DNA of 40,013 bases from Gammaproteobacteria bacterium (GTDB taxonomy: Bacteria > Pseudomonadota > Gammaproteobacteria > DRLM01), in contig JAHFRV010000028.1 in assembly GCA_023266095.1 (NCBI GenBank), forward strand, positions 1-40,013, written 5' to 3'. The number at the start of each line of letters is the position of its first letter. The first letter of the stretch is position 1. The notes below the pieces were generated by a model, which saw only the letters and a list, made by a program, of their open reading frames with translations, did not search any database and was not told where the DNA came from. The position numbers were made by a program, and so were the translations under genes. This document shows, piece by piece, positions 27,292 to 30,892 of this stretch.

Positions 27292-30021
27292 ATGACCGCA
27301 CAACAGCCCAAGCCCCTCGTACTCGTTGACGGCTCATCCTACCTGTATCGCGCCTTTTATGCGCTGCCGCCCCTCACTAACAGCCGGGGCGAACCCACCG
27401 GCGCGGTCTACGGCGTGCTCAATATGTTGCGCAAGCTGCTGAGCGATTACGACCCGGATTACGTGGCCGTGGTGTTCGACGCCAAAGGCAAGACCTTCCG
27501 CGACGACCTGTTCGCACAGTATAAAGCACAGCGCCCGCCCATGCCTGATGATCTCAGAAGCCAGATCGAACCGCTGCACGCCGCGGTGCGCGCGAGCGGC
27601 CTGCCGTGTCTCGTGGTGGACGGCGTCGAGGCGGACGATGTGATCGGCACCCTGGCCCTGCGCGCCGGCTCGCAGGGCTTGTCGGTGGTGATCTCCACCG
27701 GCGATAAAGACATGGCGCAACTGGTGAACGAACAGGTCACCTGCATCAACACCATGTCCAACACCGTGCTCGACCGCGAAGGCGTGATCGCCAAATTCGG
27801 TGTCCCGCCCGAGCGTATCGTCGAGTATCTTGCCCTGATCGGCGACAGCTCCGACAACATCCCGGGCATCCCGCAGGTCGGCCCCAAGACCGCGGTGAAG
27901 TGGCTCACCCAGTACGGCAGTCTCGACGCCATCGTCGCCCACGCGGGCGACATCCCCGGTCGCGCCGGCGACAATCTCCGCGCCCATCTCGAACAGCTGC
28001 CGCTGGCCCGTCAATTAGCCACCATCCATTGCGATGTCGCGCTCGACGTCGGCCCCAGCGATCTGCGGCGGACCGCGCCCGATACCGCGGCCTTGAGTGA
28101 GCTATATCAACAACTGGAATTCAAGACCTGGCTGCGTCAATTGCAGGAAGACCAGACAGCGCAAGACGGCGACACCCCCCTTTCGGCGGCGCCCGCCATA
28201 CCTACCGCTAAAACCGCCGATTACGATACGGTACTCACCAACGAGGCGCTGGACGCCTGGCTAGTGAAGCTGCGCGCGGCCGAGTTCTTCGCGTTCGACA
28301 CCGAAACGACCAGCCTCGATTATATGCAGGCCGAGATCGTCGGCGTTTCCTTCGCGGTCACCCCCGGCGAGGCGGCCTATATTCCGCTCGCTCACGACTA
28401 TCCCGGCGCGCCAGAACAACTTCCGCGCGACTCGACCCTCGCCAAACTCAAACCGCTGCTGGAAGACCCGGCCCGCGCCAAGCTCGGCCACAATCTCAAA
28501 TACGACATGAGCGTGCTGGCCAATCACGGCATCTCCCTCAAGGGCATCCGCTATGACACCATGCTGGAGTCCTACGTCCACAACAGTACCGCCAGCCGCC
28601 ACGACATGGATTCGCTGGCCAAAAAATACCTCGACTATGAAACCATCGCTTTCGAGGACATCGCCGGCAAGGGCGCGAAGCAACTCACTTTCAACCAGAT
28701 CGCCCTTGAAGAGGCGGCGCCCTATGCCGCCGAAGATGCCGACATCACCCTACGCTTGCATCACCGATTATGGCCGGAGCTCGAAAAGACCCCGGCGGTA
28801 AAAGCGCTGTTCGAGCAAGTGGAGATGCCGCTGGTGCCGGTGCTGTCACGTATCGAACGTACCGGCGTGCTGGTGGACGTGGCCATGTTGCGCCGACAGA
28901 GCGGCGAACTCGCCACCCAAATGGCCGCTCTGGAAACACAAGCCCACGCCGTCGCCGGCCAACCTTTTAATCTCGGCTCACCGAAACAGATCCAGGAAAT
29001 CCTCTACGACAAATTACAATTGCCGGTGTCTTTCAAAACCCCGACCGGTCAAGCGTCCACCGGCGAAGAGGCGTTACAGGAATTAGCGGAACACCATCCG
29101 CTCGCCCAGCTCATCCTGGATTACCGGGGTTTGAGCAAACTCAAATCGACTTATACCGATCGGCTGCCGGAACAAATCAACCTGCGTACCGGCCGGGTCC
29201 ACACCTCGTATCATCAGGCCGTGGCGGCGACGGGCCGGCTTTCCTCCAGCGACCCCAATCTGCAGAACATCCCGATCCGCAGCGCCGAGGGTCGCCGTAT
29301 CCGCCAGGCCTTCATCGCCCCACCGGGCCATGTGATCATCGCCGCCGACTATTCGCAGATCGAGTTGCGCATCATGGCCCACCTCTCCGGCGACCAACGC
29401 TTACTGCACGCCTTCAGTACCGGCATCGACATCCACACCGCCACCGCCGGTGAGATCTTCGGCGTGCCGCCCGCCGAGGTCAGCGCCGACCAGCGCCGCA
29501 ACGCCAAAGCCATTAATTTCGGCCTGATCTACGGCATGTCGTCTTATGGGCTCGCCCGCCAGCTCGGCACCAGCCGCGAGTCCGCGCAAACCTACATTGA
29601 TCTCTACTTCGCCCGGTATCCCGGCGCCAAGGCCTTCATGGAACGCATGCGAGCCGACGTGCGAGCGCGCGGTTACGTCGAGACCGTGTTCGGCCGCCGC
29701 CTCTATTTACCCGATATCAACGCCCGCCAAGCCCAGCGCCGCCAATACGCCGAACGCGCGGCCATCAACGCCCCCATGCAGGGCACGGCCGCCGACATCA
29801 TCAAACGGGCGATGATCCGCGCCGACGCCTGGCTAGCGGAAAGCGGGGTCGCTGCTAAAATGATAATGCAGGTACATGATGAACTGGTCTTCGAAGTGGC
29901 TGAGGACGACGTTACCCAGGCCAGCACCGCCATACGCGATTGTATGATGGGGGCGGCCTCGTTGGCAGTGCCACTGGTGGTGGATCTCGGGGTGGGCCAG
30001 AATTGGGACGAGGCCCATTAA
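27292..30021 (+). CDS. polA: DNA polymerase I
   Basis: Repair and Okazaki-fragment-maturing polymerase, 909 residues with all three domains intact. The 5'-3' exonuclease (1-~290) has [30 protein letters not shown] and [11 protein letters not shown]. The proofreading domain has the Exo I motif FDTETTSLD (D336, E338), Exo [13 protein letters not shown] and Exo [15 protein letters not shown], so proofreading looks active. The polymerase has motif [17 protein letters not shown], motif [20 protein letters not shown] and motif [10 protein letters not shown] (H862 D863 E864). A TACAAT -10-like element at 27256-27261 lies 31 bases before the ATG, without a good -35. Confidence 0.98.
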
Positions 30022-30075
30022 GGCCCTAGATTCACTGACGATTTTTTTGTTTTAAAAAATTGGGTGGCTAGTAAT

Positions 30076-30249
30076 GAACTTTTTGCATAACCAAGTACTC
30101 TCAGTCTGTGAGTACGGTTTCTAGGTTTCTGGACCGTACTCTACCGCTCGCCTCCCTGAGCGGGAAACCCCTCTAACCTGGCTTCCCCAAGCCGGGTCTC
30201 TTAGGCCCCGGTCCCTCCTCCCTCTTCTTGACCGGGGCCTTTTTTTTTA
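30076..30249 (+). ncRNA. Candidate small RNA downstream of polA
   Basis: The polA-engB gap and the end of engB hold a run of strong stem-loops on the plus strand. These are GTACTC/GAGTAC (30095-30115), a competing perfect 9-bp stem GAGTACGGT/ACCGTACTC (30110-30141), CCGCTC/GAGCGG (30144-30163), ACCTGGCTT/AAGCCGGGT (30176-30197) and a terminator ending in nine T at 30248. TTGTTT (30047-30052) and TAGTAA (30069-30074), 16 bases apart, form a plausible weak promoter. Enterobacterial Spot 42 and Pseudomonas ErsA lie at this same place, between polA and engB and in polA's direction. I see no obvious sequence match to either, so homology is inferred from position. The 5' end is uncertain. Confidence 0.55.
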
Positions 30250-30892
30250 TTTCCAGCCAATGCGAAAATAAATCTCGCGCTTCTTCTTCGCCGCTGCGTT
30301 TCAATGCTGAAAACAATTGGACGCTGACCCGGCCCTCCACCCCATACTCCCGCAGGACCGTGGCGCGCACGCTATGCAAGGTCGCACTGGCGGCGCCCCG
30401 GCTCAGCTTATCGGCCTTGGTGAGCAGGATATGCACGGCGATGCCCCGTTCCACGCACCACGCCACCATATGTCTATCGTAATCGGTCAGCGGATGACGG
30501 CTGTCCATCACCACTATCAATCCGCGCAAGGACCGCCGTCCGCCGAGATAAGCCTCCATCAGGCGCTGCCAGGCCTCTTTCATGGGTGTCGGCACTTTCG
30601 CATAACCATAACCGGGCAAATCGACCAAACGGCGCTGCTCATCCACCCTGAAAAAATTGATTTCGCGGGTGCGGCCCGGTGTCTTGCTGATGCGCGCCAA
30701 ACCACGCAGACCGGCAATCACATTGAGGGCACTGGACTTGCCTGCGTTGGAGCGGCCCGCCAGCGCCACTTCCCAGCCCGCGTCGGCAGGAAACTGGGCG
30801 GGGCGCGCCGCCCCCAAAATGAAGGTGGTCAACCGGAAAGGCGATTCCCGGCGCGGCGCGGCGCGGCGAGACGCCGCTTTTTTATCGGTCAT
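30173..30892 (-). CDS. engB: Ribosome-biogenesis GTPase EngB (YihA/YsxC)
   Basis: TrmE-Era-EngA-EngB family GTPase needed for large-subunit assembly. G1 is AGRSNAGKSS (~45-54), G2 lies in SKTPGRTREINFF, G3 is DLPGYG (91-96), G4 is LTKADKL and G5 SALKRSG. It has 239 residues, longer than the usual ~200-210, owing to a basic tail (KKKAPVKKREEGPGPKRPG). That tail is encoded by the reverse of the plus-strand terminator: its Lys codons read the T tract and its Gly/Pro codons the stem. Two bases separate its ATG from the stop of the upstream cNMP-domain gene. Confidence 0.95.
   Translation of the reverse strand: MTDKKAASRRAAPRRESPFRLTTFILGAARPAQFPADAGWEVALAGRSNAGKSSALNVIAGLRGLARISKTPGRTREINFFRVDEQRRLVDLPGYGYAKVPTPMKEAWQRLMEAYLGGRRSLRGLIVVMDSRHPLTDYDRHMVAWCVERGIAVHILLTKADKLSRGAASATLHSVRATVLREYGVEGRVSVQLFSALKRSGEEEARDLFSHWLEIKKKAPVKKREEGPGPKRPGLGKPG
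30204..30249 (+). terminator. Strong Rho-independent terminator inside the 3' end of engB
   Basis: GGCCCCGGTC (30204-30213), 16-base loop, GACCGGGGCC (30230-30239), then TTTTTTTTT. The T tract follows on the plus strand, so it ends a rightward transcript (polA or the small RNA), not engB. It overlaps engB codons ~215-229. Confidence 0.88.

Follow-up and report, generated by a model that had tools for sequence, protein, structure and literature searches.

ErsA (Pseudomon-1, RF01719) depends on sigma-22 (AlgU) and represses the translation of algC and oprD, that of algC with Hfq (PMC8395346). The C-rich loops of sX13 (RF02232) act on G-rich mRNA motifs without the help of Hfq, and this RNA was reported to be exclusive to the Xanthomonadaceae and to show no sequence similarity to Spot 42 (PMC3771888). 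The same 2013 paper pointed to alpha-r7 RNA of Alphaproteobacteria, which also has C-rich loops and also lies at the polA locus, and asked whether polA loci of other bacteria encode similarly acting sRNAs (PMC3771888). Spot 42 has been compared separately with sX13 (PMC3771888) and with ErsA (PMC8395346), and in the literature that we searched no paper was found that names both sX13 and ErsA.

Here we describe a small RNA gene in a window of 40,013 nucleotides, the whole stretch of gammaproteobacterial DNA that was analyzed, which comparative evidence indicates to be real (Table 1). The initial annotation had proposed an RNA spanning 30047-30249; we find that it most likely starts at about 30110, where the GAGTACGG stem begins, as judged from the sequence, and that 30047-30109 consists of spacer and a sigma-E-type promoter. 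The at least four stable stem-loops noted before, ending in a 10-bp GC stem and nine T, were confirmed by sequence and fold, and the folding energy of 30094-30249 is -64.9 kcal/mol (z = -5.85), a stability that none of 200 shuffled sequences equaled. That no protein frame explains the region was borne out as well, as the list of open reading frames holds no plus-strand frame of at least 60 aa that would account for it, and direct reading found neither ATG nor GTG in 30110-30248.

Table 1. Predicted RNA, promoter elements and flanking genes (positions in the window)
Feature	Position	Strand	Basis or remarks
polA (DNA polymerase I)	27292..30021	+	909-aa ORF; C-terminus matches polA of named genomes; upstream neighbor
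-35 element GAACTT	30076..30081	+	Kept in all six family members
-10 element TCTCA, spacer 17	30099..30103	+	Similar spacing and distance to RNA start in relatives
Predicted small RNA, ~139 nt	30110..30248	+	Covariance-model limits 30110-30246, fold, promoter distance, terminator
P1 hairpin, GAGTACGG (30110-30117) / CCGTACTC (30134-30141)	30110..30141	+	Variable sequence, pairing conserved
P2 hairpin CCGCTC/GAGCGG, loop GCCTCCCT at 30150-30157	30144..30163	+	
P3 hairpin, loop CCCC at 30185-30188	30176..30197	+	
P4 hairpin (terminator), stem GGCCCCGGTC/GACCGGGGCC, pyrimidine loop CCTCCTCCCTCTTCTT at 30214-30229	30204..30239	+	
Terminator tract, nine T	30240..30248	+	Read from sequence
engB (GTP-binding protein)	30173..30892	-	ORF list and engB protein homology; converges on the RNA

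In the window species, the last 20 or so codons of the engB frame are complementary to P3 and P4 (30173-30248, minus strand), and homology to engB proteins stops near the T tract. Among the six family members, the overlap is present in the window species and in L002, smaller in L003 and absent from L004, L005 and L006. An RNA that acts as an antisense to engB through this shared 3' end would make use of the overlap, but the RNA is conserved in the three species that lack it, and we regard such a role as highly improbable.

Because MAFFT put the stems out of place when 16 distant relatives were aligned, we examined covariation on a model-fitted alignment of 43 sequences in which pairing partners slid by one to three columns served as controls. 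Standard pairs make up 95.2% of the cells in this alignment, compared with 26-51% for the slid partners, and the covariation score is 0.472 versus at most 0.097. A lack of stem covariation among relatives, which the initial annotation had held would speak against the RNA, is not what we observed, since changes on both sides were found in 31 of the 37 pairs. This holds for each hairpin: 97.7% of cells are paired in P1, 98.4% in P2, 91.5% in P3 and 95.2% in P4, with double-sided changes in 8/8, 6/6, 9/9 and 7/10 pairs, respectively. While a model-fitted alignment is biased towards its own structure, P1 has the lowest sequence conservation of the stems (mean column identity, 62%), and its level of pairing at this identity would be hard to get from fitting alone. 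The hairpin loops, on the other hand, remain C-rich across the family (CCTCCC, CCCC and CTCCTCCC); the P2 loop reads CCTCCC or CCCTCC in 38 of 43 sequences, the P3 loop CCCC in 37 of 43, and the P4 loop is a pyrimidine stretch rich in CTCC/CCC. Fixed C-rich loops on variable stems are the pattern that would be expected of an RNA that acts via its loops.

The initial annotation had also suggested a switch between two mutually exclusive pairings, namely, GTACTC (30095-30100) with GAGTAC (30110-30115) and GAGTACGG (30110-30117) with CCGTACTC (30134-30141). Both are present as letters, and GTACTC is indeed able to pair with the 5' arm of P1, but the switch itself is unsupported. The GTACTC arm overlaps the -10 box and precedes the predicted start, so that it should not be transcribed, and its counterparts in the sister species, GCACTC (L002) and CGCTC (L003), pair with GAGTAC imperfectly or not at all. 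The 30110-30141 hairpin is conserved and covaries. Moreover, since engB converges on the RNA, no plus-strand gene is placed downstream for control. We therefore rejected the GTACTC arm as part of a switch, and a cis-acting RNA with mutually exclusive stems is barely credible.

An alignment of the gap with the five same-family relatives revealed a conserved GAACTT-N16/17-TCTNA box directly upstream of the first conserved hairpin. Its -35 hexamer, spacing and -10 element fit the sigma-E/AlgU type, and on this ground the RNA is expected to start near 30110. In the 40-kb window, GAACTT-N15-17-TCTNA matches once, versus 0.04 matches expected, and across the genome there are four full boxes, compared with five for a reversed control; because it is no commoner than the control, the case for the promoter is built on conservation and placement rather than on the match alone. 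We scored ten specified positions in the 90 nt upstream of, and the first 10 nt inside, each of 149 family matches, and a score of at least 9/10 was reached by 89 of the 149 (a count that includes near-duplicates and does not equal independent events) as opposed to 1.0% of 4000 stretches of 100 nt drawn at random from the same loci. Of the 89 boxes, 86 have a 16- or 17-nt spacer, and most end 5-9 nt upstream of the RNA. About 40% of the copies have no strong sigma-E-type box, and for sX13 of Stenotrophomonas and for Spot 42 a different promoter seems to be in use. A search of the plus strand from 29900 to 30400 found no sigma-70 promoter, and the only candidate CRP operator was a match with three mismatches at 30107-30122, of a kind that is not above chance in the window. 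Genes for RpoE (334 bits, a score exceeding the curated cut-off) and Hfq (105 bits) are present in the window's genome. At its rpoE locus (L235), GAACTA-N16-TCTAG lies upstream of rpoE and is conserved in three sister species, which suggests rpoE autoregulation; the same element type thus seems to be in use. We infer that the RNA is transcribed and that its transcription would depend on sigma-E in the cell.

A blastn-level search recovered the sequence from all five relatives of the same family and pieces of it from more remote genomes of the class. We also used a covariance model (R1) seeded with four close sequences. Among 274 genomes sampled evenly from Gammaproteobacteria, 111 contained R1 matches at E <= 0.01. 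From these scans, 90 loci with flanks were chosen without conditioning on polA, and in 67 of them polA lies upstream on the same strand and/or engB converges on the RNA. In four of the 90 the RNA is inverted, and the remaining 19 lack both genes in their vicinity; several of these 19 adjoin a cytochrome c4-like gene, and the cytochrome c4 gene is a common engB neighbor. Two or three tandem copies occur in L121, L122, L033, L221, L222, L205 and L216, with three in L122. In a further genome (G175; L185, 1650-2401), the polA-engB gap holds four tandem copies, and every copy has its own box or a box-like element. Two paralogous copies lie apart from polA, flanked by methyltransferase-like and pseudouridine-synthase-like frames (G026; L174, 1669-2046), and a perfect sigma-E-type box precedes each of them; in L213 and L217 an RNA with a perfect box sits beside hslU-like and rimO-like frames instead of polA and engB. 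In the window's own genome, two additional weak matches (L170 and L171; 24.6 and 20.5 bits) appear to start in the 3' ends of open reading frames and to end in the terminators of these, and we took them as chance.

These observations bear on whether the RNA is no gene of its own and instead the 3' untranslated region of polA, with a processed or read-through terminator and without its own promoter. Its start lies 88 nt past the polA stop codon on the same strand, and a strong terminator stands at its end, just as such a region would have it. Against this reading, the promoter box precedes the RNA by a nearly constant distance in most relatives, the three hairpins that are not terminators covary and keep their loops, and copies exist in tandem (L185), away from polA (L174) or inverted relative to it, all of which make a polA 3' untranslated region quite unlikely and favor a free-standing gene.

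Rfam models at gathering scores recognized only a tRNA in the whole window, and the RNA was missed. Below these thresholds, its best match is anti-hemB (RF02837, Burkholderia RNA 7), at 35.4 bits and an E value of 1.2e-6 over P2-P4, which falls short of the gathering cut-off of 49.5 despite an E value of 1.9e-6 genome-wide; the anti-hemB model comprises 81 positions and lacks P1. The ErsA and Spot 42 models, which the initial annotation had put forward as a check, gave sub-threshold matches of 22.5 and 13.6 bits, respectively, against cut-offs of 50 and 80, and the sX13 model gave 13 bits against 50. The ar14 RNA of Alphaproteobacteria has similar C-rich loops, and its model scores the window RNA at 19.8 against a cut-off of 58.8.

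We then searched in the opposite direction with a second model (R2) built from 43 sequences, from which loci reaching the Rfam cut-offs for ErsA, sX13, anti-hemB or Spot 42 had been left out. R2 detected Stenotrophomonas sX13 (38.7 bits, E = 4e-7), a bona fide ErsA (L143; 30.7 bits, E = 3.5e-5), anti-hemB loci (38-87 bits) and Spot 42 (22-26 bits, E = 5e-4 to 3e-3), and the first off-locus match within the first 297 kb searched scored 14.8 bits. The earlier surmise that the RNA might share no sequence with ErsA thus did not hold, as the family model finds both ErsA and sX13. Conversely, the Rfam models for ErsA and anti-hemB match many of the loci found by R1. The window RNA combines the model match, position, promoter box and C-rich loops that define the family; its own scores of 169 bits with R1 and 118.7 bits with R2 follow by construction, its sequence being in both seeds, and relatives outside the seeds were found by both models.

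Beyond model scores, the likeness to ErsA includes the location downstream of polA on the same strand, a box (GAACTT-N17-TCATA in L143) at the same place as that of the window RNA, C-rich loops, a long terminator hairpin and weak reciprocal matches, while ErsA differs in that its single-sequence fold lacks neat P1 and P2 hairpins. sX13 always lies downstream of polA and has three stem-loops with C-rich loops, as the window RNA has C-rich apical loops on P2, P3 and P4 downstream of polA; it was found by R1 as well as R2 though excluded from both, and its relatives, such as that in Rudaea (L037), have a sigma-E-type box, which is not clear in Stenotrophomonas sX13. The anti-hemB RNA owes its name to its position at hemB, and in many genomes its matches coincide with loci found by R1; close to one anti-hemB-type copy lies a c-di-GMP-I riboswitch (L166, 2037-2121, minus strand). 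Spot 42 (RF00021; Enterobacterales and Vibrionaceae), which is under CRP control, shares the gap and strand but lacks C-rich loops and a sigma-E box at that place, and its match to R2 may be carried by the terminator.

On whole genomes, R2 gave second matches of about 30-39 bits, some of them in another class, so that homology with ErsA could not be established from its score by itself; it is position, strand, promoter and hairpin order taken jointly that make such homology likely. Family-model matches of 29-39 bits in G516, G343, G377, G391 and G342, which belong to the same phylum and another class, are perhaps other C-rich RNAs. Alternatively, ErsA, sX13, anti-hemB and the window RNA might be mere analogues, C-rich hairpin RNAs of separate origin that arose convergently at a shared locus. 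Several distant RNAs are known to carry C-rich loops on terminator-like hairpins, and the 30-39 bit matches in alphaproteobacterial-type genomes and the second matches in some genomes fit such convergence. However, locus, strand, hairpin order, loop motifs and promoter placement are all shared, independently built models detect each other's members, and graded intermediates exist (L133, L037 and L097), which leads us to consider convergence unlikely, if still the most serious of the alternatives. Position, covariation, promoter and reciprocal matches all lend good support to the proposal that an RNA in the same gap and direction as Spot 42 and ErsA is a divergent member of a positionally conserved class, although its boundaries differ from those first proposed.

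By analogy with these RNAs, the window RNA most likely acts in trans and under sigma-E control in the manner of ErsA; its C-rich loops are similar to the anti-Shine-Dalgarno sequence and would pair with G-rich ribosome-binding sites. RpoE (sigma-E/AlgU) would transcribe it from the box at 30076-30103, from a start near 30110 to the P4 terminator; its rigid, covarying stems would display the C-rich loops, and these would reduce the translation of several mRNAs by pairing with their ribosome-binding sites, as for ErsA and sX13. The RNA would thereby form a repressing arm of the envelope-stress response. The gene itself, its structure, conservation, promoter element and terminator, and the presence of RpoE and Hfq are read from the DNA; for pairing with mRNAs, the targets and any part played by Hfq, we infer from the described systems, and as sX13 works without Hfq, its use by the window RNA cannot be assumed. 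The one candidate target considered was the rpoE leader, given that CTTCCCC of P3 faces GGGGAAG near the start codon, and it was set aside as weak, since 3.4% of random windows pair equally well with the P3 loop. Taken as a whole, a free-standing sigma-E-driven sRNA gene whose C-rich loops repress mRNAs as an arm of the envelope-stress response seems to us the probable reading.

ErsA, sX13, anti-hemB and the window RNA appear to be united, on sequence comparison, in one polA-engB family of C-loop RNAs, and the window RNA is best called an ErsA-like member of it. We would give an even chance to the view that the ancestor of a large part of the Gammaproteobacteria, the beta lineage among them, already had one sigma-E-driven sRNA at the polA-engB junction, its C-rich loops resembling an anti-Shine-Dalgarno sequence. 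On this view, ErsA, sX13, anti-hemB and possibly Spot 42 would descend from it, Spot 42 with promoter and loops swapped. What will be new to specialists is the wide spread of the family and the apparent union of ErsA, sX13 and anti-hemB. The first part of the question raised with sX13 in 2013 can now be answered, in that RNAs at polA loci are widespread and share a common structure and loops and, mostly, an envelope-stress-type promoter. A single covariance model serves for RNAs that now go under several names or none, and findings made with ErsA and sX13 could transfer to many uncultured and poorly studied groups.
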